Virus record (IMG/VR): IMGVR_UViG_3300017528_000179
Coordinates: 1 to 63,695 of that record
DNA length: 63,695 nucleotides
From: a virus
Reading direction: 5' to 3' (one strand)
Shown here piece after piece: positions 118-60,085 of this stretch. The translations under genes were made by a program, and so were the position numbers. Within the stretch, counting starts at the first letter, position 1. Each line of letters opens with the position of its first letter. The notes beneath the pieces are model-generated. The model saw only the letters and a program-made list of their open reading frames with translations. It had not been told where the DNA came from and made no database searches.

Positions 118-786
118 TTAGACATCGTTCTCAGCTAACTCACTTTCCGTGAACTTCTTTAGGTTGCGGAGTTCCCACAAACTACGTTGGTATCTACGGA
201 ATGTTTTGTTGCCGGAAGGATGCCCAAAAATCTTGTGAGCTTGGTACTCGGTTAGAATCTCTTTCTTAATGAGTTCCATCAAAACCGTTCGCCAACCTCG
301 AAACTTTTCGCCCGCTGGAATGTTATGACGGTCTAGTCTAAGGACGGACCATTCATACATTGCAGGTGTCTGCATAAAACACGCATAACGGGCCCTTTGT
401 ACTTGCTTAGGAGGGATACACCAAAGTCCTACAGTACTTGGCATTCCGTTATATACTGTAAAGCATTTAATACCGGCGGCTCGTAACTTAGCTAAAAATT
501 CATCCGTAGACATAGGATTAACTTTACGAGCTAACTCATTTGTTAAATCCTGTTGGTCTTCTATTTGATAAACTTCCGCCATCTCATCTGAAATTTCTTT
601 TTCAGCTGCAAATGACTCCTTAACAAACTGTCGATAATCCTCTGGCCACTTCACCCAATTGGGGGTTCCCCCCGCTAAAATTTGCTGAATAGATGCCTTC
701 GTAGTAGGAAGGTCGTGATAGCTTTTTATGGGGTCATCGACGTGCTTTAGCCCATTCACAGTCTCAATTCTATTGTCTACTGCCAT
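118..786 (-). CDS. Hypothetical phage protein (223 aa)
   Basis: I do not recognise this protein. It is mixed charged and aromatic, with no signal peptide or membrane segment, and its last 60 residues are rich in basic and aromatic residues (RRYQRSLWELRNLKK). A start at ATG 786 is preferred over GTG 798 because GGAGAA lies 4-8 bases upstream. It overlaps the end of the GIY-YIG endonuclease gene by 17 bases. Its place just downstream of the major capsid gene suggests a head or connector protein, but that is inference from position only. Confidence 0.7.
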   Translation of the reverse strand: MAVDNRIETVNGLKHVDDPIKSYHDLPTTKASIQQILAGGTPNWVKWPEDYRQFVKESFAAEKEISDEMAEVYQIEDQQDLTNELARKVNPMSTDEFLAKLRAAGIKCFTVYNGMPSTVGLWCIPPKQVQRARYACFMQTPAMYEWSVLRLDRHNIPAGEKFRGWRTVLMELIKKEILTEYQAHKIFGHPSGNKTFRRYQRSLWELRNLKKFTESELAENDV

Positions 787-1441
787 TGGATTCTCCACAT
801 AATGAGCATTTTAGATTTATTATTCCACGCTTAACATGCCAACGCACATGGCTGGCGGCACGACCGCCCAAAGAGCATATCTCGACGGTATGTAAAGATA
901 GTATTTGTTGTGTTTCAGACTGACGATGCTTTTGACTTTCTGACATCTTTAATTTAGACTCTTCAGAAAATACTCTACCTAAAGAAGACAACCCAATATT
1001 CCGCCTATGTTCTTCAGAGAATGTTCTTCCTTTTCCAGCTTCTGACATCTTTCTTTTCGTTTCTTCTGACCTTTTGATACCCAGCGGTCTCTTATTTCCT
1101 AACGCCGCATTCGAGATAGCTTTTTTAGCCTCATCTGAATGCTTATATCCTGAAGAGCCTTCGCCGCCGTCTGTAACATTATATCCATAAGGAACCTTAG
1201 TTCCTAGAATAGTAATTAATCTACGCTCATAAAAATCGGCTTCGCTTTTTGTTTCAACTACTACGAGCGTTTCTACATCAAAACTATTAATTCCGTACTT
1301 CTGTATAGCAAAATACAAACAAGAATTTCTTTGACTATTGGTAGGACACTGGTGACCTTTCCAACGAACTTCTAACGGTCTGGACGTTTGCCCGACATAC
1401 TGCTTTCCGTTAATTTTGTTTGTTACAAGATAAACTAGCAT
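770..1441 (-). CDS. GIY-YIG homing endonuclease with NUMOD3 repeats
   Basis: The N-terminal 90 residues form a GIY-YIG nuclease domain: VYLVTN, then QYVGQT, a conserved Arg (RPLEVRW) and a Glu in YERRLI. The next 90 residues carry four NUMOD3-like DNA-binding repeats (patterns such as HSDEAKKAISNAALGNK and RSEETKRKMSEAGKG). The C terminus has a CxxC-like KCSLC. This is the domain order of I-TevI-like and SegA-like homing endonucleases. The start at ATG 1441 follows GAGGAG. It lies outside and downstream of the predicted group I intron in the capsid gene, has its own consensus promoter (1505-1534), and its Shine-Dalgarno site is in a hairpin. It may cut an intronless capsid allele; that is inference. 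Confidence 0.88.
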   Translation of the reverse strand: MLVYLVTNKINGKQYVGQTSRPLEVRWKGHQCPTNSQRNSCLYFAIQKYGINSFDVETLVVVETKSEADFYERRLITILGTKVPYGYNVTDGGEGSSGYKHSDEAKKAISNAALGNKRPLGIKRSEETKRKMSEAGKGRTFSEEHRRNIGLSSLGRVFSEESKLKMSESQKHRQSETQQILSLHTVEICSLGGRAASHVRWHVKRGIINLKCSLCGESNGSRQ

Positions 1442-1534: not shown

Positions 1535-1557
1535 GAAGTTTTTACTTTACTGAATGG
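1531..1557 (-). CDS. Predicted exon 2 of the major capsid gene
   Basis: If the group I intron is removed, the capsid reading frame continues with eight codons (PFSKVKTS) and a TGA at 1533-1531. The first bases CCATTC can pair with GAATG of the internal guide, as expected for P10. The short basic tail is plausible for a capsid C terminus, but the splice is predicted from structure only. Confidence 0.5.
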   Translation of the reverse strand, partial: PFSKVKTS

Positions 1558-1837
1558 CTGGTACCGAATCAATAAAGCGGATACGCTGGGTGTTTAGACC
1601 AGTCGCCGGTGGAAGCGTTACGGTTTGCAATCGCTTCCTACTTTTTGTTACTCGCTTTCGCGGAGCCAATCATTTCTGTTGGCTTCATACAGTTTGTTTC
1701 CTGTATGTTCAGACTATTGCATCACCTTTCGGTGTTCTCTCACTTAGTCGTTCAGGCTGCTTTCGCTTGCCCCTCGTTGGCTTCTCAGCGTTCGAGTCAA
1801 TACAGAGAGAATTTTAATTCCACCATTCCGAATTTCA
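1558..1837 (-). ncRNA. Group I intron in the major capsid gene
   Basis: Read on the minus strand, the capsid codon CAT ends at 1838 and the 280-nt intron follows. P1 pairs exon TTCCAT with intron GTGGAA and places the required U-G wobble at the splice site. The core has the R element with GACTA (1749-1745), a P8 hairpin CACC-GAAA-GGTG (1734-1723), and the S element with TAGTC (1716-1712), giving a 5-bp P7. The S element is followed by CTGAAC and an ATACAG-CTGTAT hairpin, then three further strong hairpins, GCCAA-TTGGC, CTCCGCGAAAGCGAG and GGAAGCG-CGCTTCC. The intron ends with G at 1558. No reading frame lies inside it. Confidence 0.8.
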
Positions 1838-2788
1838 ATGGAATCTGTAACTTGCCCAGCCCCCAATTGTTGCGGTCGGGTCGAACGAAGACGGCGGCGC
1901 GTCAGTTACAACGCGGCAGTCAATCGTGCGCCAATCGCCTTCATCAAGGTCGGTGTCTCCCGGAACCTGTAGCCACACACCAATCATCGCATAGTTGCCG
2001 AAGACATATGTGCGGTATGCGGTCTTCGTGGTCCCGCTGTAGTTAGCAGTCTTGGTCACGAATGGGGTTTGACGGAAGAGGATATTCGTGCCAGGTAGCA
2101 CGATTTCTTTCGTCTGGTCGCTGCCAGCCATTTCATCGAACTTCTTTTGCCCACTCTCGGTGTGCTTCCAGTTGTCGATGATGGAGTTGTTTACCGTTGT
2201 CGCGTTGTAAATATCGCCCAACACGTTCGGAGAAACTACGCCGTAGAACATACCCTTTTTGCAAGGTAGAACGTCGGCGCTAACTAGCTGCTGCTTCATT
2301 TCACGAACCGTGGCTAGGTCTAGCGTGAAAGGACTTGCAAGCAAGCCGCTCTGGTTCACGTTTGCGTCAACGCCAGAAGCGCTATCCGCAACCGCGCTGT
2401 ACAATTCACTGATGGACTGACCGGCTTGATAGCCGAGTTCCACAGCGGAATTGCCAACGAGTTCGTCAATCGAAGATGCGATTGCGAACGCACTGAAGTT
2501 AGCATAGTTGTTCCATTCACCAACCTGGGCTGGTGCGGAAATCTGGCTGATAACTTCTGGTGCTCCGACTACTCCGTCGGCGTTTTGTACAACGTCGCCT
2601 GTTATGGTGTTGTACTGGAAGAACTGGCGGTTTACGCCCATGTGCAATCCCTGCACACGACGCTCTGCTACGGCTACGAAAGCGTCTGTTTCTCCCTTAA
2701 GATTGGGGATTAACTCCTTATCGAACAAGATGGCTTGTGCGGTAAGAACGTTTGATACGTTTGACCCCGAAGGGTTTGGTCCACTCAT
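1835..2788 (-). CDS. Major capsid protein (exon 1, 317 codons)
   Basis: This is the main head protein by position, next to scaffold-like, portal and terminase genes, and by size. The chain has no membrane segment. A segment near residues 116-128 (VELGYQAGQSISE) and one near 252-266 (AYRTYVFGNYAMIG) look like conserved capsid-core stretches. The C terminus reads GGWASYRFH, then an in-frame TGA that is the first intron triplet. If the intron splices, the protein gains eight residues to 325 aa. The start ATG 2788 has a weak AAAGAG upstream. Short relatives of this protein appear in the genes at 23.1-23.8 kb. Confidence 0.85.
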   Translation of the reverse strand: MSGPNPSGSNVSNVLTAQAILFDKELIPNLKGETDAFVAVAERRVQGLHMGVNRQFFQYNTITGDVVQNADGVVGAPEVISQISAPAQVGEWNNYANFSAFAIASSIDELVGNSAVELGYQAGQSISELYSAVADSASGVDANVNQSGLLASPFTLDLATVREMKQQLVSADVLPCKKGMFYGVVSPNVLGDIYNATTVNNSIIDNWKHTESGQKKFDEMAGSDQTKEIVLPGTNILFRQTPFVTKTANYSGTTKTAYRTYVFGNYAMIGVWLQVPGDTDLDEGDWRTIDCRVVTDAPPSSFDPTATIGGWASYRFH

Positions 2789-4602: not shown

Positions 4603-6717
4603 TTAAAGTGTTGCTTGGGAACCGAATCCTTGCGTACTGTTCTGTCCTAACAATTCCGGGTCAGTTGCCTTTTCAATTGCTGCTCTAAACCCTTCGTTGC
4701 CCGCCTTGCCTAATTGCTTCTGGTCTTCAAGTTGTTGCTCTTGCTGAAACTTCTGAAGTCCCATCTTCTGAGCTGCTTGTGCCTGAGCTGCTTGCAGTGC
4801 CGCAGGAGAGTTCATATCATGCTTCTGCTTCTCTTGAGGCGTCATCTTACGTAGAAATGGCTGAGCAAACTTCCAGCCTGCGCCACGCGCAAATTCATTA
4901 AAGATTGCCGGGCCATCCCACATATAACCAGCATCCATAACGTTCTGTGAGAACGTTGGATTGTTAGTCATCTGCAGAATAACCGGCAAGAACTGAAGCA
5001 TTTCTTTCTTAGCGCCTAGCTTTGAGCCTGCCAAAACTTCGTATTCAATCTTTGCGTTACGGAAGTCGACATGGTCGACCATGTAACCTTCGCCCAATTC
5101 GTCGCCGAGAATGTCTCGAATTACAGACGTTGGAAGCAAATCATTGTTTAACTCGTCCATCTGATACAACCATGGCTCAAATACTTGGCGAACGAATCGT
5201 CCTGCAGGGCCGTCCAGTCGAGATGCGTTGGCTTGAATAACAGCCGCCGAGCCCGTACCAGTTCGCATACCAGTGGCTTTGCCGCCCATGGATGCTGCAC
5301 CTTGAACGACTTGTTCATTAGCGCCAGATGTTGCTGCACCAGAAGTCTGTGCTTGCGAAATAAACTGCCAAGCTTCACCTGGGACTGGCGGCATTTGCAA
5401 AAACTTAAACGCTTTATCAACGTCTTCTTCGACGTCGATGATACCGCCTTGACGCCAACGAATGTTTTGCGTAGGTGTGTTAAAACCCTTCTTACGTACG
5501 GCGGTCGGTTGAAGACCATAAGCCAACAAATCGAGCGCAAGATTAGTTACACCCTGCTCTACAATCTGTTCGCTACCAATCAACAAGCCAAGTCCCTGAC
5601 CATAGAAGTTGTCAGGAATATTACGCCAGTTAAAGCTGTAGAACGGAATCTTTCCGTATGGGTTGACTTCGTTACGAATTAGAATGTTGTGACCGTCGAA
5701 GGACAAAACAACAATAACTTTCTCGTTGTCCCAACGCTCCAAAATTTCCATGGGAGCTACGTTAGGGTCAGACGACGTCTTATAGCTACGCGGCAAAGCG
5801 TGTTGTAAATACCCCATCATTCCTTCCGGAATGGTCATGGTGATATTGTCTGGCCCAGACGTTACACCGTTTGCGAAGATATCTCTAAGCACATCCTCTT
5901 CGGGAATGTTATAGCCTTCTGTGCCACGCAGGTAATTCAAATCCGCGAATGTGGCATAGTCGCGATAAACAACCCAACCGGCTCTTCGGATATCCCCTAC
6001 GCGACAGCCAGGGTTAACTAGAACCGTACGAATATCACAATACTTAAGCCAGGGATTAGAAATCTTTTTATCAAAATATTCAAATGTAGACTCATCCGAA
6101 TCCGGGGTATCCACTAACTTCGTTGTGCCATCCGGTTGCGGAAGCGAAAGCTTCTCAGCCTTGCGCTTATACTTCTTCATCTTCTTTGTATATTCTGAGT
6201 AACCGAACTTCATGATGCCGGTACCTAATAAAGCGGCTTGTTCGAGAGTACGTTCTGTTTCTTCCTCGAACTTCATGAAATCTAGTTGTGCTGAAAATAC
6301 TGCAGTCTTAGCAGTAACAACTTCTGGGGTTGTGCCTGGGCGAGGACGCAACAACATTGGAGGGTCCTCGAAAAATATTCCTCCCATAATTTTTGGTACG
6401 ATTGATGAGATGTGGTTACTCACCATGTATTTTGGAACAGACGCCTGACCGACATTACCGCCGTCGAAAGCCGATTGCGTCGCTGGCGATTGATACAACA
6501 AATCCGCCATTGTCCAACCATTTGCCCACTGCTGAATATTAATGTAATTATCTGCTGTGTTTGTATCGTCTAAAACGAGCTTGACTGCCGCGCTGTCATT
6601 GAACTGAATAGTGTCCGTTTCTTTATCTACGTAGGTATTATCTTCAGTTATCTCATTCGCAGGAGTGACGTACAGGTCATGTATCTTCTGTTGAATTCTT
6701 TGGTCCTGGTCGCTCAC
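4603..6717 (-). CDS. Portal protein (704 aa)
   Basis: The size, neighbourhood (terminase upstream, scaffold and capsid downstream) and sequence match a phage portal, the dodecameric ring at one head vertex through which DNA passes. Features include early DPPMLLRPRP, an internal GQGLGLLIGSEQ segment, and a Gln/Ala-rich helical C terminus typical of the portal barrel. The start is GTG 6717 with AAGGAAT upstream. It is 13 bases from the terminase stop. Residues about 428-455 (DVDKAFKFLQMPPVPGEAW) have a clear relative in the small gene at 23144-23521. Confidence 0.85.
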   Translation of the reverse strand: MSDQDQRIQQKIHDLYVTPANEITEDNTYVDKETDTIQFNDSAAVKLVLDDTNTADNYINIQQWANGWTMADLLYQSPATQSAFDGGNVGQASVPKYMVSNHISSIVPKIMGGIFFEDPPMLLRPRPGTTPEVVTAKTAVFSAQLDFMKFEEETERTLEQAALLGTGIMKFGYSEYTKKMKKYKRKAEKLSLPQPDGTTKLVDTPDSDESTFEYFDKKISNPWLKYCDIRTVLVNPGCRVGDIRRAGWVVYRDYATFADLNYLRGTEGYNIPEEDVLRDIFANGVTSGPDNITMTIPEGMMGYLQHALPRSYKTSSDPNVAPMEILERWDNEKVIVVLSFDGHNILIRNEVNPYGKIPFYSFNWRNIPDNFYGQGLGLLIGSEQIVEQGVTNLALDLLAYGLQPTAVRKKGFNTPTQNIRWRQGGIIDVEEDVDKAFKFLQMPPVPGEAWQFISQAQTSGAATSGANEQVVQGAASMGGKATGMRTGTGSAAVIQANASRLDGPAGRFVRQVFEPWLYQMDELNNDLLPTSVIRDILGDELGEGYMVDHVDFRNAKIEYEVLAGSKLGAKKEMLQFLPVILQMTNNPTFSQNVMDAGYMWDGPAIFNEFARGAGWKFAQPFLRKMTPQEKQKHDMNSPAALQAAQAQAAQKMGLQKFQQEQQLEDQKQLGKAGNEGFRAAIEKATDPELLGQNSTQGFGSQATL

Positions 6718-15606: not shown

Positions 15607-15680
15607 TGGATGGGGCGGAAGGATTCGAACCTTCATAGCCAGATTCAAAGTCTGGCGTCCTGCCGTTGGACGACATCCCA
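15607..15680 (-). tRNA. tRNA-Gln(TTG)
   Basis: Cloverleaf with encoded CCA, anticodon loop CTTTGAA and standard T loop TTCGAAT. Acceptor pair 5-68 is A-C, the same irregularity as in the other Gln tRNA. Confidence 0.85.
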
Positions 15681-15785
15681 TTAGAAAATTTGCCCGTTTG
15701 GACTTCAACCTCCACGGTGCCGGGGGTGTTAGTTCCGCGTGCATCACGATGCTAACAACACCGGACGCGGTTTATATCTAAAAAT

Positions 15786-15859
15786 TGGTCCCGAGAGTTA
15801 GATTCGAACTAACGCTTACCGCTCTTCAGGCGGGGGTGCTACCATTACACCATCAGGGG
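15786..15859 (-). tRNA. tRNA-Phe(GAA) with mismatched acceptor stem
   Basis: Encoded CCA, T loop TTCGAAT, D stem GTGT with GCAC, anticodon loop CTGAAGA. The acceptor strands CCCCTGA and TCTCGGG pair except for C-C at 4-69 and U-U at 5-68. Confidence 0.75.
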
Positions 15860-15861
15860 AT

Positions 15862-15948
15862 TGGCGGAGAGGTAGACGAATCGAACGCCCGTCTTTTCAG
15901 ACGCCTCCGGGTTCGAACCGGATTGCCCACCATTGAGCGGTACCCTCC
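15862..15948 (-). tRNA. tRNA-Ser(CGA)
   Basis: A class II tRNA with a hairpin variable arm (GTCT-GAAA-AGAC). The anticodon loop TTCGAAC gives CGA and looks much like a T loop. The CCA is encoded, and acceptor pair 7-66 is not paired. Confidence 0.75.
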
Positions 15949-15956
15949 ACAAAATT

Positions 15957-16046
15957 TGGCGGAGAGCAGTGAATTCGAATCACTACGAGATTTTAATCTC
16001 GACTACCACTTAGCAGGCGGGTACGTTACCATTCCGTCAGCTCTCC
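15957..16046 (-). tRNA. tRNA-Ser(GCT)
   Basis: A class II tRNA with perfect 7-bp acceptor GGAGAGC/GCTCTCC, encoded CCA, anticodon loop CTGCTAA and a strong variable arm (CGAGATT with AATCTCG). Confidence 0.85.
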
Positions 16047-16207
16047 GTATAGTTGGCTTATGCGCAACTAGATGAAGAACTAAACGAATCGGTAGTGTAC
16101 ACTTTAATCATAAAATTTACTGCCCTATTACCCAAGGCTCTGGAGAACGGACCATCACTCCGCCGATGACATTGAGTTAATGCCCCAATGGCGGGCCTTT
16201 GCAAATT
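16047..16207 (-). other. Array spacer without recognised gene
   Basis: This 160-bp spacer between tRNA-Ser and tRNA-Trp has a short frame (17 codons, MIKVYTTD...) recalling a glutaredoxin start but truncated and without ribosome-binding site, and one small hairpin, GCCC with GGGC. I see no tRNA in it. Confidence 0.4.
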
Positions 16208-16281
16208 TGGCAGGAAGCGTAGGAATTCAACCCACTCCCCTCGGGTTGGAGCCGAGTGTGCTGGCGTAACACTTGCAACCT
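16208..16281 (-). tRNA. tRNA-Trp(CCA) with mismatched acceptor stem
   Basis: The anticodon loop CTCCAAC gives CCA, and the D stem is GTGT/GCAC. The CCA end is encoded. The acceptor AGGTTGC/GCTTCCT has U-U at both 4-69 and 5-68; pairing outside this bubble is perfect and even extends two pairs beyond the end. Confidence 0.75.
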
Positions 16282-16288
16282 GCAGAAA

Positions 16289-16365
16289 TGGCGAAGATAG
16301 CCGGATTCGAACCGGCGAAAACCCCATAGACAGTGGGGTGCGATAGGCCGCTACGCGATATCTCC
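16289..16365 (-). tRNA. tRNA-Asp(GTC)
   Basis: Acceptor GGAGATA/TATCTTC, T loop TTCGAAT, anticodon loop CTGTCTA, encoded CCA. Canonical. Confidence 0.9.
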
Positions 16366-16373
16366 GTTGAAAA

Positions 16374-16448
16374 TGGCTGGGGACATAGGACTCGAACCTA
16401 CACCTGTCCGGTTAACAGCCGGGTGTACTACCGTTATACGAATCCCCA
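16374..16448 (-). tRNA. tRNA-Asn(GTT)
   Basis: Acceptor TGGGGAT/GTCCCCA, T loop TTCGAGT, anticodon loop CTGTTAA, encoded CCA. Canonical. Confidence 0.9.
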
Positions 16449-16458
16449 GTAGAAACTT

Positions 16459-16569
16459 TTATCTTACAAACGCCGCCATAACAAGTGGCAAAATTACTAC
16501 GAGTACGAACACGTACAAAACAGTTAATCCGTTCTTCGCACTCAGCGTTAGGCTATCCCACCAGTTCAT
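16459..16569 (-). CDS. Tiny membrane protein (36 aa) inside the tRNA array
   Basis: ATG 16569 overlaps the stop of the 49-aa gene (ATGAACTGGTGGGATAG), suggesting translational coupling. Residues 15-34 (LTVLYVFVLVVILPLVMAAF) form a single membrane helix with a short WW-containing N terminus. It may act with the 49-aa membrane protein. Confidence 0.55.
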   Translation of the reverse strand: MNWWDSLTLSAKNGLTVLYVFVLVVILPLVMAAFVR

Positions 16570-16702
16570 GAAACTTATCCTTGGCCCAAACGAACGGCAA
16601 CAAAATAACAATACCAGCGAGTAAGAAAAATTGGACGAGCCCATCAATCACTGGGTGCACTTCAAGAAATTGTTCCATCTCCAGCTTTTCTTGATGGTCC
16701 AC
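16553..16702 (-). CDS. Tiny membrane protein (49 aa) inside the tRNA array
   Basis: GTG 16702 has AGGAGAG seven bases upstream. The frame encodes an acidic N terminus (DHQEKLEMEQFLE) and one helix, VIDGLVQFFLLAGIVILLPF, then a charged tail. It is tightly overlapped with the 36-aa membrane protein gene. A membrane-active pair such as a minimal lysis module is possible but unproven. Confidence 0.55.
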   Translation of the reverse strand: MDHQEKLEMEQFLEVHPVIDGLVQFFLLAGIVILLPFVWAKDKFHELVG

Positions 16703-16716
16703 GGACTCTCCTAAAA

Positions 16717-16806
16717 TGGTGGAAGCGGCTGGATTCGAACCAGCTAGTGCCGCAAGGGCATCTTGTTTTACAGACAAGCACAGCCCGCCGTCTCTGCCGC
16801 ACTTCC
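16717..16806 (-). tRNA. tRNA-Tyr(GTA)
   Basis: Class II with variable arm TGCC-CTTGC-GGCA, anticodon loop CTGTAAA, acceptor GGAAGTG/CGCTTCC, encoded CCA. Confidence 0.9.
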
Positions 16807-16814
16807 ACATAAAC

Positions 16815-16888
16815 TGGAGCCGAGTGACTTAATCGAAAAGTCGCCTGTGAGGTACAAGCTCACCGTTCTACCACTAAACTAACCGGGC
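16815..16888 (-). tRNA. tRNA-Thr(TGT) with acceptor mismatch
   Basis: Anticodon loop CTTGTAC, encoded CCA, T loop TTCGATT. The acceptor GCCCGGT/ACTCGGC has C-C at 4-69 and a G-U wobble at 5-68. Confidence 0.8.
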
Positions 16889-16896
16889 TTAAAAAT

Positions 16897-16971
16897 TGGA
16901 GCTGTTGTAGAGAATTGAACTCTAGCTTATTCCTTACCAAGGAATCGTGCTACCACTGACACCACTACAGC
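16897..16971 (-). tRNA. tRNA-Thr(GGT)
   Basis: Anticodon loop TTGGTAA, T loop TTCAATT, encoded CCA. The acceptor GCTGTAG/CAACAGC has A-A at 6-67. Confidence 0.8.
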
Positions 16972-16973
16972 TT

Positions 16974-17047
16974 TGGAGCAAAGTCTGTGACTCGAACACA
17001 GGTTTCGGCTTTACGAGGGCCGCGTCGTACCGCTGGACCAACAATGC
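16974..17047 (-). tRNA. tRNA-Thr(CGT) with mismatched acceptor stem
   Basis: Anticodon loop CTCGTAA, T loop TTCGAGT, encoded CCA. The acceptor GCATTGT/ACTTTGC has U-U at 4-69 and 5-68, as in tRNA-Trp. Confidence 0.75.
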
Positions 17048-17056
17048 TTTGAAATA

Positions 17057-17130
17057 TGGAGCGACGTACCGTAATCGAAACGGTGCCTATTCCTTGGCAA
17101 GGAATCGTTCTACCACTATACCAACATCGC
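17057..17130 (-). tRNA. tRNA-Gly(GCC)
   Basis: Anticodon loop TTGCCAA, acceptor GCGATGT/ACGTCGC with one G-U, T loop TTCGATT, encoded CCA. Confidence 0.85.
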
Positions 17131-17139
17131 TTTGAAAAT

Positions 17140-17213
17140 TGGAGCGGTCTATCGGACTTGAACCGATACGAAGAGTTTGGAAAACTCCCATGCTACCATT
17201 ACATCAACACCGC
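17140..17213 (-). tRNA. tRNA-Gly(TCC)
   Basis: Anticodon loop TTTCCAA, T loop TTCAAGT, encoded CCA. The acceptor GCGGTGT/AGACCGC has G-G at 6-67. Confidence 0.85.
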
Positions 17214-17221
17214 TTTGAAAT

Positions 17222-17311
17222 TGGTTGCGGGGGCCAGATTCGAACTGGCGGTGCGCTTTCGCGTTCCTGCTTATGAGACAGGTGTCATCGGCCTGACTAG
17301 ACGACCCCACA
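17222..17311 (-). tRNA. tRNA with CAT anticodon and long variable arm (Met or modified Ile)
   Basis: Acceptor TGTGGGG/CCCCGCA, T loop TTCGAAT, anticodon loop CTCATAA. The variable region is 16 nt and holds a CGC-GAAA-GCG hairpin, which is not expected for Met or Ile tRNAs. U1-A72 also differs from elongator Met. The identity (Met, or lysidine-modified Ile) cannot be decided here. Confidence 0.75.
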
Positions 17312-17320
17312 ACTGAAAAT

Positions 17321-17396
17321 TGGTTCTGGTCGCTGGATTCGAACCAGCTACCTTCCGCTTATCGAGCGGACGCCCGTCCACATGTGCTCGACCAGA
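17321..17396 (-). tRNA. tRNA-Ile(GAT), C33 variant
   Basis: Perfect acceptor TCTGGTC/GACCAGA, T loop TTCGAAT, anticodon loop TCGATAA, which has C instead of the almost invariant U33. The D arm is irregular. CCA is encoded. Confidence 0.75.
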
Positions 17397-17406
17397 ACAG
17401 AAATTT

Positions 17407-17486
17407 TTCGGGACGGTAGCGTTTGACGCTTTCGACGGACTGATTACCGCGAGACTAGCCTTCGTTTGCCGAAGCTGACGCCCGAA
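17407..17486 (-). ncRNA. Cloverleaf-like structured RNA without tRNA signatures
   Basis: An 80-nt element closed by TTCGGG with CCCGAA encloses hairpins CTTCG-GCAAA-CGAAG and AGCG-TCAAA-CGCT plus a central arm. It has no T-loop consensus, no evident anticodon arm and no CCA. It could be a decayed tRNA or a separate small RNA. Confidence 0.4.
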
Positions 17487-17492
17487 TTAAAT

Positions 17493-17566
17493 TGGTGGAG
17501 CGCTAGGGAGTCGAACCCTATCTTGATGCGTGCAAGGCAACCGTATTCCCGTCCTACTCGCACCCC
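17493..17566 (-). tRNA. tRNA-Ala(TGC)
   Basis: Anticodon loop CTTGCAC, acceptor GGGGTGC/GCGCTCC with G-U pairs, T loop TTCGACT, encoded CCA. Confidence 0.85.
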
Positions 17567-17622
17567 ACTGAAAACAAAAGCATATTTAATCTTTGTGCCA
17601 TATTTACAATACGATTAAATAT

Positions 17623-17698
17623 TGGCAGAGCTACCCGGATTTGAACCGGGGTGAACACCTTGAAAGGGTGTCATCCTAGGCCGCTAGATGATAACTCC
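17623..17698 (-). tRNA. tRNA-Glu(TTC)
   Basis: Anticodon loop CTTTCAA, acceptor GGAGTTA/TAGCTCT, T loop TTCAAAT, encoded CCA. Canonical. Confidence 0.9.
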
Positions 17699-17710
17699 AC
17701 TGAAACTTTT

Positions 17711-17815
17711 TCGACGGCAGGGATTCGAACCCTGCGTTTGCTCCGTGTTAATAGGACCTCTGCGAACACCCTTTCGGGTAGTGCCGTGCCTTTGCCACTC
17801 AGCTTCTCACGTCGA
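17711..17815 (-). ncRNA. Oversized tRNA-like RNA (105 nt), identity unclear
   Basis: The ends form an acceptor-like stem TCGACG/CGTCGA and a perfect T arm CAGGG-TTCGAAT-CCCTG. A class II type D arm (GCTGAGTGGCAAAGGC) is present. The middle is about 25 nt too long, contains an ACCC-GAAA-GGGT hairpin, and no proper anticodon arm can be drawn. CCA is not encoded. It may be a decayed tRNA, or a tRNA-shaped RNA with another role. Confidence 0.45.
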
Positions 17816-17821
17816 AAAACT

Positions 17822-17895
17822 TGGTCGCCCTGCGGGGTATCGAGCCCCGGTTACCTGGTTGAGAACCAAGCCTCTTGCCATTAAAGGACAAGGCG
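17822..17895 (-). tRNA. tRNA-Glu(CTC)
   Basis: Anticodon loop TTCTCAA, acceptor CGCCTTG/CAGGGCG, T loop CTCGATA (atypical first base), encoded CCA. Confidence 0.8.
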
Positions 17896-17899
17896 AAAA

Positions 17900-17990
17900 T
17901 GGTAGTCAGCGTCAGAATCGGACTGACATGCAAGTCTAATCAGGACCAGAAGCGATTATAAATCGCTGCCGCGAACCATCGCAACCGACT
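17900..17990 (-). tRNA. tRNA-Ile(TAT)-like with long variable arm
   Basis: Anticodon loop TTTATAA on a perfect 5-bp stem (AGCGA/TCGCT). Acceptor AGTCGGT/GCTGACT, encoded CCA. The variable region is about 22 nt, which is abnormal for Ile, the T loop is TCCGATT (C55), and the D arm is irregular. Confidence 0.6.
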
Positions 17991-17997
17991 ATTAAAA

Positions 17998-18073
17998 TGG
18001 TACCTCGTACTGGAATCGGACCAGTCCTTCTCGGGTGTAGGCCGAGTGCATACGACCAGTTTGCTAACAAGGT
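17998..18073 (-). tRNA. tRNA-Val(TAC), C33 variant
   Basis: Acceptor ACCTTGT/ACGAGGT, anticodon loop CCTACAC with C33, T loop TCCGATT with C55, encoded CCA. The loop deviations match those of its neighbours. Confidence 0.7.
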
Positions 18074-18573
18074 ACAAAAATGGTGGGCCGCGAAAGACTT
18101 GAACTTTCACTCGTCGGATTAAAAGTCCGCTGTGCTGCATTAACACTAGCAGCCCTTAGAATTCTTCTTTCATGTGTTCTACGCCGATGGTCATTTGCAC
18201 ATCGTACATCACACTTTTTAATTTCTTCAAGTATTGACGTCCACGAATAACCCTGAGAGACCATCTTACTTACATCTTTGAACTTTTCTCCACGAACATG
18301 GTCAAAATCGAGAACAACGACGTCTGCTTCTCCACAATCAACGCAAGGATGAAAAGACAAATAGTTAAAAATTCTTTCTCTATTTAACTCTCTCAATCTT
18401 TTAGATTGACGAGCACATACTTCAGTGTGTTCCTTTCGATGAGTGCTATGATAAGTTTTATGTATATCCTTACCACAATCTCTGCAATAAGTTTGCAAGC
18501 CATCTTTCTTAGAACGATTTTTATTAAAATCCGTTTCTTGCTTATCTAAACTACAAGTATGACATCTCTTCAT
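18064..18573 (-). CDS. HNH homing endonuclease in the tRNA array (169 aa)
   Basis: An N-terminal zinc knuckle pair (CHTCSLDK and YCRDCGK) precedes an HNH nuclease core: CVDCGE near residue 80, LDFDHVRG near 92, and CANDHRRRT near 128. This is the common phage HNH layout. The domain ends near residue 134, but the frame runs on for about 35 codons through tRNA-Lys(TTT) and into the 5' end of tRNA-Val, stopping at 18064. The tail is therefore made of tRNA sequence. ATG 18573 is preceded by a leader that pairs with its ribosome-binding site. Confidence 0.85.
   Translation of the reverse strand: MKRCHTCSLDKQETDFNKNRSKKDGLQTYCRDCGKDIHKTYHSTHRKEHTEVCARQSKRLRELNRERIFNYLSFHPCVDCGEADVVVLDFDHVRGEKFKDVSKMVSQGYSWTSILEEIKKCDVRCANDHRRRTHERRILRAASVNAAQRTFNPTSESSSLSRPTIFVPC
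18081..18155 (-). tRNA. tRNA-Lys(TTT)
   Basis: Anticodon loop CTTTTAA, acceptor GGGCTGC/GCGGCCC, T loop TTCAAGT, encoded CCA. It lies wholly inside the 3' end of the HNH reading frame, on the same strand. Confidence 0.85.
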
Positions 18574-18612
18574 TGCGCCCTCCCGAAAGAGCGATGGGGA
18601 GGTTCGGGCCTC
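18574..18612 (-). promoter_or_regulatory. 5' leader with Shine-Dalgarno-sequestering hairpin (HNH gene)
   Basis: A 9-bp hairpin, ATGGGGAGG with CCTCCCCAT, is followed by a second one, CGCTCT-TTCGGG-AGGGCG, which includes the GGGAGG ribosome-binding site in its loop and 3' strand. The layout matches the leaders at 1454-1498 and 25084-25128. Confidence 0.6.
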
Positions 18613-18638
18613 CCCATTCTAATTGTACGTACAAAACT

Positions 18639-18713
18639 TGGTCGACCGCCCGTGAATTGAACACGGTCCTATCCCGTTAAGAGCGGGTAATGCTGCCGTA
18701 ACACCTGCAGTCG
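18639..18713 (-). tRNA. tRNA-Lys(CTT)
   Basis: Anticodon loop CTCTTAA, acceptor CGACTGC/GCGGTCG, T loop TTCAATT, encoded CCA. Confidence 0.85.
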
Positions 18714-18714
18714 T

Positions 18715-18894
18715 TTATGGAAATTCTTTATACTCTAAAATCACTGGACGGATTACTCCATCTCGGCAGCGCCAAACCCATCCGTCGTCGATAAGGATTG
18801 CTGTGTGCTCGCAAACATAACAGCCTTTGCACCGAGTACAACGATAGGATAAGTAATTATTATACTTGTCTCGGACGTTGCACAATTCGCACAT
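18715..18894 (-). CDS. Cysteine-rich zinc-binding protein (59 aa)
   Basis: ATG 18894 to TAA 18715. The frame encodes MCELCNVRD and CTRCKGCYVCEH, six cysteines in CxxC spacing, then a short beta-rich tail with WVWRCRDG. It resembles a small zinc-binding or rubredoxin-like fold. The stop lies one base from tRNA-Lys(CTT), so processing of the tRNA would set the mRNA end. Ribosome-binding sequence AGGTC is modest. Confidence 0.6.
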   Translation of the reverse strand: MCELCNVRDKYNNYLSYRCTRCKGCYVCEHTAILIDDGWVWRCRDGVIRPVILEYKEFP

Positions 18895-19318
18895 AAACTT
18901 TGGTCGACCTGTACCCAGGCTTTTGTAAGCTATAACTTGACAGATTCTTTCGAAGTGTCAACCCATGGCTTGACGTTCATTCCTCTAAGCCCCCACCCGA
19001 GCTTCGACGGCTTAGACTTGCCTCAGCTCCTACTTGGGGTTGCATCGAGCGTGGAGTGCCCCGACATGATTGTACACATTCATACAAATCTTTCGACTTG
19101 TACATAAACGTGCAATCGGGCCTTACCCGTCACCTTACGGTGCCTGCATCTTCCACAGCGCTCTGTCTATGATGGCCTGAAGTTCCTCGCGGGGTTCGGA
19201 CCCACGCGAACGTCTAGTCTACCAAACTTTGAACTTTCGCCCCCTGTATAGTCTTACCTGGATGTTCAAGGTACGCCTTGACGTCAGCTGACGCTTTGAG
19301 GGAGCCACCCGTTCAAAC
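18895..19318 (-). ncRNA. Gene-free, highly structured segment in the tRNA array
   Basis: This 420-nt stretch holds no convincing coding frame or canonical tRNA. On the minus strand it contains many strong inverted repeats: TACAAGTC-GAAA-GATTTGTA (8 bp, tetraloop), CTAAGCC with GGCTTAG, CACC-GTAA-GGTG, a T-arm-like CGTGGG-TCCGAAC-CCCGCG, and TTGACA with TGTCAA. The density of GNRA-type loops and long stems suggests a large structured RNA or several small ones. It could also be decayed tRNA material. Confidence 0.5.
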
Positions 19319-19395
19319 TGGACCCAGCGACAGGACTCACACCTGCTTCGCTTGTTTTGCAGACAAGTGCCTCGTTGACTTCGGCATCATCCGGG
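19319..19395 (-). tRNA. tRNA-Cys(GCA), irregular
   Basis: The anticodon loop CTGCAAA sits on a perfect stem (CTTGT/ACAAG). CCA is encoded. The T loop is TGTGAGT, without the TTC signature, and the acceptor has imperfect pairing around positions 5-7. It may be a poor or non-functional tRNA. Confidence 0.6.
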
Positions 19396-19512
19396 ATAAA
19401 AAGTTCCTGCTATGGAGTGACCTAGCGGTGCCTTCGCTGTCCCTGGTATGACCTATAAGAACTTTGGGCTTGCGGCCTACTCATTCACAGTCCTCTGTAT
19501 GGCACAGGAAAT
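19396..19512 (-). ncRNA. Structured spacer with 7-bp closing stem
   Basis: AAAGTTC and GAACTTT enclose about 50 nt containing AGCG/CGCT and repeated GGTCA/GGTCAC segments on the minus strand. There is no coding frame and no tRNA. Function unknown. Confidence 0.35.
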
Positions 19513-19598
19513 TGGTGCGGCTGGCTGGACTTGAACCAGCACGTCCCGAAGGACCTTCGATTTTAAGTCGAAGTCGTCTGCCATTCCGTCACAACCGC
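19513..19598 (-). tRNA. tRNA-Leu(TAA)
   Basis: Class II with variable arm TCC-TTCGG-GA, anticodon loop CTTAAAA, acceptor GCGGTTG/CAGCCGC, encoded CCA. Canonical. Confidence 0.9.
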
Positions 19599-19604
19599 AA
19601 AATC

Positions 19605-19748
19605 TTTGATGCGTCCACCCTCGTCGCAACTTACTATCAGAAGCAGAGCGCTAGATTCTAAGTCTTGCGTTCAATGTCTGAGCCAGCGGTGGCAATCAGC
19701 GCGGTCAGCTTAGACTGGCCATGTAGCACCTTGCGGTGCCGCATCAAA
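19605..19748 (-). ncRNA. Structured RNA candidate with 9-bp closing stem
   Basis: TTTGATGCG and CGCATCAAA close a 144-nt segment between two Leu tRNA genes. Inside are GCACC-GCAA-GGTGC and a GGCCAGTCTAAGCTGACC element on the minus strand. A 28-codon frame overlaps it but has no ribosome-binding site. The long perfect closing stem argues for a discrete RNA. Confidence 0.45.
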
Positions 19749-19750
19749 CT

Positions 19751-19839
19751 TGGTCGCCCACCCCGGACTTGAACCGGGACGCCTTCTTGAGGGCACTCGC
19801 TCTTGAGGCGAGCGCGTCTGCCTATTCCGCCAGCAGGCG
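19751..19839 (-). tRNA. tRNA-Leu(CAA)
   Basis: Class II with variable arm GCCCTC-AAGAAGGC, anticodon loop CTCAAGA, acceptor CGCCTGC/GTGGGCG, encoded CCA. Confidence 0.88.
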
Positions 19840-19847
19840 ACATAAAA

Positions 19848-19923
19848 TGGAGGAATTGCACGGACTCGAACCGTGATTACAGCCTTCGCAGGGCTGAGCC
19901 TTGTCCTGTTAGACGACAACTCC
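19848..19923 (-). tRNA. tRNA-Arg(GCG)
   Basis: Anticodon loop CTGCGAA on CAGCC/GGCTG, acceptor GGAGTTG/CAATTCC, T loop TTCGAGT, encoded CCA. Confidence 0.9.
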
Positions 19924-19928
19924 AAAAA

Positions 19929-20004
19929 TGGAGGGCTCGCACGAACTCGAATCGTGATAATCGGTTTCGAAGACCGATGCCTTGTCCTATTAGACGACAA
20001 GCCC
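19929..20004 (-). tRNA. tRNA-Arg(TCG)
   Basis: Anticodon loop CTTCGAA, acceptor GGGCTTG/CGAGCCC, T loop TTCGAGT, encoded CCA. Its D arm closely resembles that of tRNA-Arg(GCG), suggesting duplication. Confidence 0.9.
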
Positions 20005-20077
20005 TTAAACTTGAGTACTCGCCGCGAGAACAACGTAGCACGACGTTCGACGGCGTATCCTGACCCGCCTAGAAGAT

Positions 20078-20153
20078 TGGAAGGCCCGCTCGGACTCTAA
20101 CCGAGATAGTCGCCTTAGAAGTGCGACGTCCTGTACGATTGAACGACAGGCCC
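20078..20153 (-). tRNA. tRNA-Arg(TCT)
   Basis: Anticodon loop CTTCTAA, acceptor GGGCCTG/CGGGCCT, encoded CCA. The T loop TTAGAGT lacks C56. Confidence 0.8.
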
Positions 20154-20158
20154 AAAAT

Positions 20159-20241
20159 TGGTAGCCCAGGTGGGACTTGAACCCACAATCCTTGCGGCGG
20201 CAGTTTCTAAGACTGCTACGTATGCGTTCCGTCACTAGGCT
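20159..20241 (-). tRNA. tRNA-Leu(TAG)
   Basis: Class II with a CGCCGCAAGG-type variable arm, anticodon loop CTTAGAA, acceptor AGCCTAG/CTGGGCT, T loop TTCAAGT, encoded CCA. Confidence 0.88.
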
Positions 20242-20837
20242 ACAGAAAATTAATAGGCACGCTAGTCAGATTGTAGGTGACGTCGAGTTATGCCTTTATC
20301 TCGATGACCATCTGAAAAGCTACAGGTTGTTGACCGGCGCTCTACCATTAAGCTAAGTGCAGCCGAAGCCACACGCGGGACTTGAACCCGCACCTCCGGT
20401 CTCTTCCGCCTGCCAGTTATTCATGCAGGGCTTAAATCCGGGCGGATACAAAGCCTCCGCCGGGGCTTATCCCGCTCGTGGGCGGGTGAATCAGTCTGTC
20501 CCTTACCAGCATGCGAGACTCGCTCGTCCGGGTGCGACCCAAAGGCGATTAACTGATTCTGTTCTAGAACATCGTTTGCTTATCTGTTATACTCATTGGC
20601 CTGAGTTGGTACATTTTAAGACTGTACTGTGGTCTGCAATTTTAGGCCGTTGCTGGGGCCATCAATCGACATGGCTTGACTGAATTCTGAGATATGCTCT
20701 CAGTTTATTTCAGCTGATACCATCATTGCCTGTGCTCAAAAAGAGCGAGCCGATTGTTACTCGACTTACGCCCCATTTAAGGAACAGCGAGATAATTTCG
20801 AGCCGTTACGCGCCTTCGGCGGTGTACTCGAAAAAGA
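20242..20837 (-). ncRNA. Large gene-free ornate structured region (about 590 nt)
   Basis: No coding frame or full tRNA is found. The region is packed with perfect inverted repeats (plus-strand view): GAATCAGT with ACTGATTC enclosing CGAG/CTCG and GGGT/ACCC hairpins, CCCGC/GCGGG, ACTCA-TTGGCC-TGAGT, GGCC/GGCC, nested CTGAA(CTGAG-CTCAG)TTCAG, GCTC-AAAAA-GAGC, CGCC-TTC-GGCG. The minus-strand 3' part has a T arm (GCGGG-TTCAAGT-CCCGC) with no matching acceptor or anticodon arm, and a tRNA-like 5' half beside it. Size and location next to phage tRNAs recall the GOLLD and ROOL classes of large phage RNAs, but identity is not shown. Confidence 0.55.
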
Positions 20838-20927
20838 TGGTCGGGCTGCGAGGAATTGAACCTCGAAGGGCTTGTAGCCACCTGCTTCCGAAGCAGGACC
20901 GCTGCCAGATTACGGAACTACAACCCG
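20838..20927 (-). tRNA. tRNA-Pro(CGG) with long variable arm
   Basis: Anticodon loop TTCGGAA on CCTGC/GCAGG, acceptor CGGGTTG/CAGCCCG (C1-G72 as in Pro tRNAs), encoded CCA. The variable region is about 15 nt with a GGCT-ACA-AGCC hairpin, which is not normal for Pro. Confidence 0.8.
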
Positions 20928-20934
20928 ATTAAGA

Positions 20935-21023
20935 TGGTCGAGATGGAAGGATTTGAACCTCCAAGGCGTTGCCGCACTGGTTTCCAAAACCAGACCGCTA
21001 CCAAGTTACGGACCTACACCTCG
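20935..21023 (-). tRNA. tRNA-Pro(TGG) with long variable arm
   Basis: Anticodon loop TTTGGAA on CTGGT/ACCAG, acceptor CGAGGTG/CATCTCG, encoded CCA. The variable region of about 14 nt (GGC-AAC-GCC) is again class II-like. Confidence 0.8.
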
Positions 21024-21034
21024 ACAGAAAACTA

Positions 21035-21111
21035 TGGGGTGACCCATGGGGCTCGAACCCATTATAGCCAGATTCACAGTCTAGCACGTCACCTGTTTCG
21101 TCTGAGCCACC
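21035..21111 (-). tRNA. tRNA-His(GTG)
   Basis: Anticodon loop CTGTGAA. It has the histidine hallmark of an extra G at -1 opposite C73, acceptor GTGGCTC/GGGTCAC, encoded CCA. Confidence 0.88.
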
Positions 21112-22646: not shown

Positions 22647-22841
22647 TCAGGGATAAATCTTTTTATACAACCATCCAGCCATCGAGACGCCTAAACCGAC
22701 GAATGCAATATAGAATCCTACATTGTGCTTTAAGGCTGCGGTAATGGTTCCGCCAAACGCCAGCATGTATCCAACGAAAGTCAACCACGGACCTTCTTTG
22801 ATGTATTGGTCCAGATTATTAAAAATCGTCGAGAAGCTCAT
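22647..22841 (-). CDS. Two-helix membrane protein (64 aa)
   Basis: The start at ATG 22841 overlaps the stop of the 53-aa gene. Helices span about residues 20-38 (PWLTFVGYMLAFGGTITAA) and 42-58 (VGFYIAFVGLGVSMAGW), with a basic C terminus (YKKIYP). This resembles a small holin; no endolysin is linked. Confidence 0.6.
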   Translation of the reverse strand: MSFSTIFNNLDQYIKEGPWLTFVGYMLAFGGTITAALKHNVGFYIAFVGLGVSMAGWLYKKIYP

Positions 22842-22999
22842 ACAACACCGTCCTTGTGGGCGCGGAACATATCGCCAATAAAATGAACTGTGAACGCTGC
22901 TGCGAACAAACCTTGTGACCATCCGTGAAGAAACGGCAGGATGGCCAGCGCTGCGACGAATCCTGAAACTTGAAGAATCAAAATTGTTCTATCTGTCAT
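22838..22999 (-). CDS. Small membrane protein (53 aa)
   Basis: ATG 22999 to TGA 22838, overlapping genes on both sides by a few bases. Two hydrophobic segments (ILILQVSGFVAALAILPFL and GLFAAAFTVHFIGDMF) suggest a hairpin membrane protein. With its 64-aa neighbour it forms a coupled membrane pair. Confidence 0.6.
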   Translation of the reverse strand: MTDRTILILQVSGFVAALAILPFLHGWSQGLFAAAFTVHFIGDMFRAHKDGVV

Positions 23000-23181
23000 T
23001 CTGGGTTCTTCTTATGTTCGACAAGCTTACCACTTAGGCCTGAGGGCTCGGAACCTTTGAGAAATGCCCTTGCACTACTGTTAGAGTATTCGTAAGTTCG
23101 TAAACCATCAGCACATTCAAATGTGACACGAACTTTGTTCGGGCTAATCTTCTCGGTGGCTGTTATGTTCTTCTTGGACAT
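22996..23181 (-). CDS. Small soluble protein (61 aa)
   Basis: A beta-rich protein (KVRVTFECADGLRTYEYSNS) resembling the short KTSC-type proteins of phages in its pattern of strands and a Ser-Ala turn, but the match is loose. It overlaps genes at both ends. Confidence 0.55.
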   Translation of the reverse strand: MSKKNITATEKISPNKVRVTFECADGLRTYEYSNSSARAFLKGSEPSGLSGKLVEHKKNPE

Positions 23182-23521
23182 TTCTACCTACAATCACTCG
23201 GCTCGCTGCTTCGTTGGCTTTCTGTGCTTCCTCAATAAACTGCCACGCCTCTGCTGGCAGGGGCGGCATCGGAAGAATATGAAATTCTTTATCTACTTCT
23301 TCGTCGCTGATACTCTTACCCGCTTGCCATCCCAATTCTTTGGCACTCGCCTCAATTATGGGGTCGATGCATTTGTTGATTTCAACAGTACAGGCCGCGC
23401 CATAATCAGTAAACTTCTTTTCGAGACCTGGGTCGTTTAATTCCTGGTGAAGGTGATACTCACAAGGCCCGTCCCAAAAACTTCGAAGGGAACAATCGCA
23501 ATCTTGAAGAGTCACGCTCAT
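23144..23521 (-). CDS. Mosaic protein with capsid-like and portal-like segments (125 aa)
   Basis: Residues about 62-73 (ELGWQAGKSISD) match the capsid protein ELGYQAGQSISE at 9 of 12 positions. The following residues about 75-100 (VDKEFHILPMPPLPAEAWQF) match the portal VDKAFKFLQMPPVPGEAWQF at 15 of 20, and similarity continues a few residues on both sides. The N terminus holds four cysteines (CDCSLRSFWDGPC) and unrelated sequence. The codons differ widely from the portal gene, so this is not a recent copy. It overlaps the 61-aa gene by 38 bases and is coupled to the 101-aa gene. Confidence 0.65.
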   Translation of the reverse strand: MSVTLQDCDCSLRSFWDGPCEYHLHQELNDPGLEKKFTDYGAACTVEINKCIDPIIEASAKELGWQAGKSISDEEVDKEFHILPMPPLPAEAWQFIEEAQKANEAASRVIVGRNVQEEHNSHRED

Positions 23522-23823
23522 GCTATCACAGCCTGCTCGCCCATTACATAAGTTCGATAGCTGATGGTATGACCGTCTACTTTCTTATCGGGCGATAATC
23601 TCATTCTCAGCCTAGACTTAGGAGGAAGCGATACTGTGTATTTATATTTATAAGAAACCCAACCACCTACCAAATCACTTTGCTTCTCGGCAGGAATCGC
23701 GGCTCGCATGCGGCGATAGTAATCCGCGTCGGTCTCCGTCTTTAGTAGTGTACCAAGAAAGGACGCGTTGGTAGCTACAGCAGAAGCCATTCCGAGCATT
23801 GATAAGAATTTACGGCGATTCAT
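23518..23823 (-). CDS. Tat-like leader protein with shuffled capsid-like segments (101 aa)
   Basis: The first 24 residues, MNRRKFLSMLGMASAVATNA..., look like a twin-arginine signal (RRKFL then a hydrophobic stretch). Further on, VGGWVSYKYKY resembles the capsid C terminus IGGWASYRFH, and the last residues ISYRTYVMGEQAVIA resemble the capsid TAYRTYVFGNYAMIG. In the capsid these two segments occur in the opposite order. Start and stop overlap both neighbours by 4 bases. Function unknown. Confidence 0.6.
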   Translation of the reverse strand: MNRRKFLSMLGMASAVATNASFLGTLLKTETDADYYRRMRAAIPAEKQSDLVGGWVSYKYKYTVSLPPKSRLRMRLSPDKKVDGHTISYRTYVMGEQAVIA

Positions 23824-24170
23824 ATGCTGCCTTCGTACGCTAATTCTGAAAGCGTCTTGTAATTAAAGAACTGATAATTCTTTCCGGCCTTCACTGGAAG
23901 TTTTCCACTATCATGCTCTTCTAGAGCTTTAGCAATCTCAGGCGACGACTCGCTGTAGTAATTATTATACTCCGCGATGACTGCATACACAGGAACATCC
24001 CAAGTCGCGTATCTAAGTGTTGCGAGCGGTATGTTGACCCCGAGGATATTAACGTGTGTTGGCTTTTTCATTATGCCTTCTGCCATCTTTCTAAGCTGGG
24101 CCCGTTTTGTCGCCGCGATAGGACAACCTCGACAAATGGAATATTGACCACAACATCTTACGCGAGCCAT
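23820..24170 (-). CDS. Hypothetical protein with cysteine-rich N terminus (116 aa)
   Basis: Residues 6-16 (CCGQYSICRGC) could bind a metal or cluster. An internal ATG at 24071, after AGAAGG, would give a shorter protein without it. The segment NYQFFNYKT faintly recalls NRQFFQYNT of the capsid protein. It is coupled with the membrane gene upstream and the 101-aa gene downstream. Confidence 0.55.
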   Translation of the reverse strand: MARVRCCGQYSICRGCPIAATKRAQLRKMAEGIMKKPTHVNILGVNIPLATLRYATWDVPVYAVIAEYNNYYSESSPEIAKALEEHDSGKLPVKAGKNYQFFNYKTLSELAYEGSI

Positions 24171-59145: not shown

Positions 59146-59822
59146 AGCTTCTAATTGCTGTCAAATCTTGTCAGCGCGACCTTAAACTCGGTTTCCACGA
59201 TGTAATTCGCGGCACCTGGGGCAAAGACGCCAAGGCTCTCGGTATCGACGTTCGGTTCTTTGTTGGCGCGGAAGCAACGCCTTATCAGTCGGACGAAGTT
59301 CATGTAAAGAGCGCGGACGATTACAATGCTTTGCCGTATAAGACTCGCGAGATTTGCCGCTGGGCAAATGGGAAGATGCTAGATTATGTTTTCCTTTGCG
59401 ATACTGATACGTTTCTTCGCTTGGATACGATGATGGCATGGTATGAGAAGATAAAGCTTAACAAATACGACTACGCGGGTAAAATCTCGCAACCTGTGAA
59501 TAGGCCTTTCCGTTATGAGCACACGGGGCGTGAGGGGCAGAAGGAATATCACGAGCGTTGCTATCCGTGGGCATCGGGCGGTTTCGGGTATTTTCTAAGT
59601 AAACGGGCGGTTCAAGAAGTGGCGTTTGAGCATCCGATGAGTCAATGTGAGGACCTTTGGGTCGGGCAGGTAATTGGGAAGCTCGCGGCAGCCGGTGAAA
59701 TGTCTATCTTGAGTACGCCAGCCAATGAGTACTCCTGGCACCACCCTCAGCACGGAGAACTCTATTCGCTAGAGCCATTGAAGGCATGGCAGGAGAAGAT
59801 GTACGCGGAGCACAAAGCTTGA
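59142..59822 (+). CDS. GT31/fringe-like glycosyltransferase (226 aa)
   Basis: LLIAVKSCQRDLKLGFHDVIRGTWG resembles the opening of beta-1,3-galactosyltransferase-type enzymes (R-x-x-I-R-x-T-W). FLCDTDTFLRLD is the DxD sugar-nucleotide site near residue 90, and ASGGFGYFLSKRAV and EDLWVG are family-like acceptor and catalytic segments. GTG 59142 overlaps the previous stop. The family is mainly eukaryotic, with phage and bacterial members. Confidence 0.75.
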   Translation: MKLLIAVKSCQRDLKLGFHDVIRGTWGKDAKALGIDVRFFVGAEATPYQSDEVHVKSADDYNALPYKTREICRWANGKMLDYVFLCDTDTFLRLDTMMAWYEKIKLNKYDYAGKISQPVNRPFRYEHTGREGQKEYHERCYPWASGGFGYFLSKRAVQEVAFEHPMSQCEDLWVGQVIGKLAAAGEMSILSTPANEYSWHHPQHGELYSLEPLKAWQEKMYAEHKA

Positions 59823-60085
59823 AAGTTAAACTAACACTTGCCGACATTAGAGAAGCTAAGAAACAATTAGCATCCAGACATATTGCACCTAATAAAGATG
59901 GAAATTACTTAGGCTACTCGGTTCCTCGGTTGGAAGACGGTATAATTTGGTTCGGCTTGTTGGCTTGTATGCATCCGTCAACCTTCTTAGATATGTTCGG
60001 CAAAGAACGGTTCTTAGCAATCAACGCGGACATTTCAAAGAGAAGAATTCAAAACTACATTAAGAAATGGGAGAAGTCGAAGTGA
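59819..60085 (+). CDS. Hypothetical protein (88 aa)
   Basis: TTG 59819 overlaps the preceding stop (TTGA). A basic, helical protein (TLADIREAKKQLASRH...). No known motif. GTGA overlap with the fucosyltransferase. Confidence 0.55.
   Translation: MKVKLTLADIREAKKQLASRHIAPNKDGNYLGYSVPRLEDGIIWFGLLACMHPSTFLDMFGKERFLAINADISKRRIQNYIKKWEKSK

Follow-up and report, generated by a model that had tools for sequence, protein, structure and literature searches.

Fv1 and enJS56A1 are restriction factors that derive from retroviral Gag and are kept by selection to disturb related viruses. They resemble the small phage proteins described here (mimics) in being derivatives of a virus structural protein. However, they are host-encoded, eukaryotic and drawn from one parent gene, whereas the mimics are phage-encoded, form a mosaic of several head genes and carry an export-type leader. 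The satellite capsid redirectors P4 Sid and PICI CpmA/B act on the head assembly of another phage, and we propose this likeness for the mimics; the redirectors are not known to be mosaics of capsid protein (MCP) and portal. In T4, a capsid targeting sequence directs accessory internal proteins to the prohead. This sequence is a short directing segment, as some mimic segments might be if they served as tags, but, unlike them, it copies neither MCP nor portal. A precedent for a phage-encoded assembly blocker is Tab, the prophage tail assembly blocker that stops virion assembly of another phage (PMC10884400). By its description, Tab differs in blocking tail assembly, and nothing there presents it as a fragment of a structural protein. 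The parent families of the mimics are phrog_1357 and SU10_portal, from which the mimics differ in having leaders, little of the fold and another order of the joined segments. Our literature searches turned up no account of small chimeras of several head proteins that have an export-type leader and lie in a shared cluster; we infer the mechanism of the mimics.

The window, meaning the whole 63,695-nucleotide stretch analyzed, is a linear virus record. Its genes for terminase, portal, a 145-aa product, a scaffold-like 424-aa product and MCP lie at 1.8-9 kb. The portal gene (4603..6717, minus strand) is assigned to SU10_portal / phrog_1216. The MCP gene (1835..2788, minus strand) encodes 317 aa. 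The window capsid has no PHROG match, and capsids of the same family in relatives match phrog_1357, 'major head protein'. Against solved structures the MCP profile gave weak matches, the best at E=0.014 (kinesin), with 9d82 'B2 Capsid' at E=0.047. We identified 80 portal relatives in IMG/VR. A portal scan of genome contigs gave two portal relatives, L321 and L322, in contigs binned as an uncultured archaeon; these are probably viral contigs in a mixed bin. Among the isolates of the phage collection, the podovirus Tunturi_3 of Tunturiibacter (PMC11924767) is the closest (portal 35%, MCP 38%). Tunturi_3 gp111, annotated as 'portal protein', was absent from the portal-profile matches.

The MCP ORF ends at 1835, and in the region behind it (1550-1834, minus strand) its C-terminal residues resume at about 1550-1640, ~200 nt on. 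The same insertion is also present in G043, G025, G041 and G036. Its conserved AACGACTA...ATAGTC resembles a group I intron core, and there was no Rfam match. A GIY-YIG-like gene (770-1441, minus strand) adjoins the interrupted MCP, and G043 has a gene like it after its MCP. Elsewhere in the window, a 99-aa gene (59786..60085, plus strand) carries a segment like MCP 154-187 (E about 2-5e-4). In clade B, a 163-164-aa gene that resembles the C-terminal half of the MCP lies ~2 kb after it (L278:8892-9386, L291:8746-9237).

The mimics of the window, p101 (23518..23823) and p125 (23144..23521), are both on the minus strand, and their frames overlap via ATGA (stop/start), as expected from an earlier description of them as a coupled pair. 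The 101-aa p101 begins with a Tat-like leader, MNRRKFLSMLGMASAVATNASFLGTLLK (residues 1-28, 23740..23823), in which twin arginines and a hydrophobic stretch are recognizable by eye. Two MCP-derived segments follow in reversed order. Residues 49-76 (23596..23679) resemble the MCP C-terminus (profile 304-331) in uninterrupted order, although the MCP gene of the window is itself interrupted at that place. Residues 86-100 (23524..23568) resemble MCP 254-268 (SYRTYVMGEQAVIA vs SYRTYVMGQYALIG). The 125-aa p125 consists of a Cys/Trp motif, an MCP spine-type segment and a portal segment. The motif, CDCSLRSFWDGPCEY (residues 8-22, 23456..23500), possibly binds metal and is common to the genes in the same slot in G041 and L327. 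Residues 36-73 (23303..23416) correspond to MCP profile 92-129, the presumed spine-helix region, and residues 61-107 (23201..23341) to portal 417-464 (VDKEFHILPMPPLPAEAWQFIEEAQ). From p101 to p125 the order is thus MCP C-terminus, MCP 254-268, MCP 85-131 and portal, the reverse of the head-gene order.

We compared both proteins with the full six-frame set of 1,184 ORFs from the window. The best match of p125 was the portal ORF (E=6e-11, 48 residues, portal 417-464), followed by the MCP ORF, where residues 27-73 align with about 82-128 from the start codon (E=3e-4). The next match after these and p125 itself was noise (E=4.6). The earlier note had read p125 as a capsid-like stretch joined to a portal-like one, and this is borne out, with an MCP match of 47 residues in place of the 12-mer it had noted. 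Within the window, the p101 matches of residues 52-75 to the MCP C-terminus and of residues 88-101 to MCP about 258-271 are weak (E about 1-2). With the MCP profile, p101 was matched at E=6e-6 and p125 at E=1e-4, and so the comparison with capsid and portal families that had been suggested found significant segments. Against 68 full MCPs of relatives, the two p101 segments scored 72 and 53, above all of 300 shuffles each (maxima 39 and 33), which agrees with the reading of p101 as two capsid-like segments in reversed order. Exact-pattern searches with p125 and p101 alone gave no further close copies. In a reversed-read control of >38,000 ORFs, the portal, MCP and scaffold-like profiles gave zero matches at E<0.1. 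On the window E-values, profile matches, shuffles and the reversed control we reject chance resemblance, as the length of the matches had suggested at the outset.

We also considered, and reject, the view that the pieces are parts of the head genes themselves, split off or separated by introns. The distance to the head genes is at least 16 kb and the order is rearranged, while genuinely split MCPs adjoin the main ORF. The codons of the pieces had been described as strongly different from those of the parent genes. This is right in part: codon identity in the MCP piece of p125 equals expectation with no excess, and in the portal piece the codon is kept at 11/16 degenerate identical residues (expected 6.7, P=0.03). 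A fresh copy of the phage's own capsid is not supported, as mimics are mostly nearer to other mimics than to capsids; the portal piece has the slight codon excess. Match length and quality, together with that excess, suggest that the resemblance arose by copying and not by convergence.

We searched the whole records of relatives for small ORFs outside the head genes that match p125/p101 or the MCP/portal profiles. About 14 related soil phage lineages have a gene with an MCP segment (around MCP 85-131), usually with a Tat-like leader and often with a segment like MCP 254-270, mostly within a shared small-gene cluster. The commonest form, in G026, G021 (same protein in G046), G044 and G039, has a Tat-like leader, an MCP 254-270-like segment (YTTYIMGQDAVIS) and then an MCP 85-131-like segment (YADYANFSSFALASAIDDSVAEAAAELSHRAGQS). 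Mimics with other middles occur in G017, G041, G005, G028 and G045, and in G015 and L327 a spine-type segment stands behind a different leader. The proteins are about 90-150 aa long and contain about 15-83 MCP residues each, and fall short of the full-length fold of an MCP of about 310-345 aa. Portal pieces in relatives come from 417-467 or 568-615 and span 30-55 residues of a full portal of about 700 aa. Profile matches to the MCP reach E=5e-16 (the G039 mimic), and an 87-aa mimic in G038 itself matches phrog_1357 171-224 (E=0.002). Judged by their sequences, p101 and p125 are shown to belong to a family of small modular proteins built from short head-protein (MCP, portal) segments, and its carriers to be soil podovirus-like phages of several lineages, relatives of Tunturi_3.

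The cluster has the order zinc-type gene, coiled coil, mimic, FNxYC-type protein, 61-aa gene and small membrane/basic proteins in G021, G017, G026 and G041, and is partial in G044, G028, G015 and L327. Many relatives have a paralogue of its zinc-type gene close to the MCP. The G039 mimic is without these neighbors. The window version comprises a 116-aa gene (23820..24170), p101, p125, a 61-aa gene (22996..23181) and two small membrane-type genes of 64 and 53 aa (22647..22999), all on the minus strand. The 61-aa gene is found downstream of the mimic slot in G041, G028, G011, G015 and L327, and the membrane-type pair is conserved in G026. In G015 and L327, the slot gene has a leader that matches residues 40-52 of the 116-aa protein (VNILGVNIPLATL). 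This 116-aa gene has a 13-aa VxILGVxIPL and a CCGQYxxCRGC segment in common with other locus genes in relatives; such very short modules are shuffled at the small-gene locus. Beside the cluster are 21 tRNA genes (Rfam; 15610-21110, minus strand).

Some family members have other fusion partners. In G017 and G021 a coiled coil ends in a portal 568-611-like piece, and pieces of portal 568-615 stand free in G025 and G011. G035 encodes an HNH protein with a scaffold-like segment and a hydrophobic C-terminus. G038 has leader and MCP 131-194 in one protein and a portal 423-477 piece in a separate one. Such variety, and the further small conserved proteins encoded at the locus, would be expected if the head segments were virion-targeting tags that bind scaffold or capsid and deliver small accessory partners, such as a coiled coil, HNH or membrane helix, to the inside of the prohead. 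We consider this unlikely, as the Tat-like leader would take most mimics to or across the membrane and many relatives with the same head genes are without mimics.

Signal models match the leader in several relatives: the mimics of G005 and G038 pass the TIGR01409 cut-off and that of G044 lies just under it, while that of G026 stays below the PF10518 cut-off. The p101 protein itself had no Pfam match and no Tat-model match, so the Tat-like leader attributed to it is supported by eye and by relatives' leaders near or above the cut-offs, but not by a model match of its own. For the G039 mimic, the prediction gives an N-terminal helix at residues 3-28 and, after a poorly defined stretch, a long helix at 55-96 that is confident; this presumably corresponds to the spine helix of the HK97 capsid fold. 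The predicted capsid fold is of low confidence (pLDDT 34). Apart from Tat signal models, the mimics had no family match in Pfam, NCBIfam or PADLOC. No profile library (Pfam, PHROGs, NCBIfam, PADLOC) names the family, there was no PADLOC match, and no defense family was found for the mimics in Pfam, NCBIfam or PHROGs. A literature search on head-fragment interference and Tat-linked superinfection exclusion gave no match. MCP and portal are known triggers of CapRel- or Avs-type systems, and mimics whose segments derive from these two proteins could be decoys for such host sensors. The export-type leader and the lack of a match to defense or counter-defense families count against this reading, which is very doubtful.

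Selection on the family is indicated by pairwise NG86 comparison of six mimics (dN 0.28-0.72, dS 1.2-4 or saturated). The resulting dN/dS of about 0.1-0.6 is rough, with dS near saturation; dN below dS among the mimics is evidence of purifying selection at the sequence level. Most of the residues invariant in 66 MCPs (Y95, F98, S99, D108, A115, E117; T258, Y259, G262) are kept in most mimics. Mimic-to-mimic scores are mostly higher than mimic-to-capsid scores, with two exceptions: the G039 mimic is nearer to capsids, and for G021 the scores are about equal. In a specificity screen with 361 large genes as queries, displaced short copies (E<1e-5) came from portal, MCP and the scaffold-like protein; the others were generic HNH/GIY-YIG domains, repeat/fiber-type domains and a few without assignment.

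The mimics could also be non-functional debris left by illegitimate recombination where small genes form a hypervariable locus. The very short modules shuffled there (13-aa VxILGVxIPL, a CDCxLRSFW motif), the slight codon identity of the portal piece to the phage's own portal and the broken-looking versions in G011/G042 and G030 are consistent with this. However, frames are intact in about 12 lineages, and low dN relative to dS, the shared cluster, the repeated Tat-like leader and the head-biased donors make debris distinctly improbable. A selected family fits better, given the mutual likeness of the mimics, the kept residues and dN/dS. The earlier note had weighed remains of foreign head genes against selected imitation of head parts, and named broken frames in close relatives as evidence against its proposal. 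Imitation is favored by presence in ~14 lineages and by frames that are intact in most of them, together with the cluster and substitution patterns. The shrunken or broken frames in G011/G042 and G030 count against it; thus, some decay takes place.

The function that we favor, tentatively and at less than even confidence, is interference with competing related phages, either in the assembly of their heads or in the delivery of their genomes. From the conserved residues we infer that the mimic segments may keep surfaces recognized by capsid, scaffold or portal partners. The leader would place the mimics in or across the inner membrane, where they would bind the head partners of a related phage in the same cell, and binding would stop the competitor from assembling heads or delivering its genome. 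The interface residues that the mimics retain suggest that head partners are bound. The leader and the patchy presence suggest an accessory role, and the patchy presence fits a competitive one: among 29 further records, the gene is present besides the capsid only in G046 and, broken, in G030. Against interference, an exported mimic would miss the assembly intermediates in the cytoplasm, unless its leader stays uncleaved and acts as an anchor. The scores point to no single target phage: the spine segments of G026 and G039 slightly favor clade-B capsids over those of their own clade, and other mimics show the reverse.

In T4, gp40 helps portal assembly at the membrane. The mimics could similarly be membrane-bound factors of the phage's own head assembly or of its timing, a role compatible with a leader joined to MCP/portal interface segments and with the shared locus. 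This is very doubtful, as many relatives with the same head genes have no mimic and mimics do not track their own capsid. Returning to interference, we consider it somewhat doubtful, but conceivable, that this phage lineage builds dedicated interference proteins against related phages from its own capsid, portal and scaffold interface segments behind an export/membrane signal, with modules exchanged between loci.

If the mimics interfere with assembly or entry, phages can convert their own structural genes to weapons or tags, as in Gag-derived restriction in animals. The family also provides minimal peptides of capsid and portal, a natural collection under long selection, and may indicate the contacts that drive head assembly in SU10-like podoviruses. 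The relationship of the carriers to the cultivated Tunturi_3/Tunturiibacter system makes bench work feasible.
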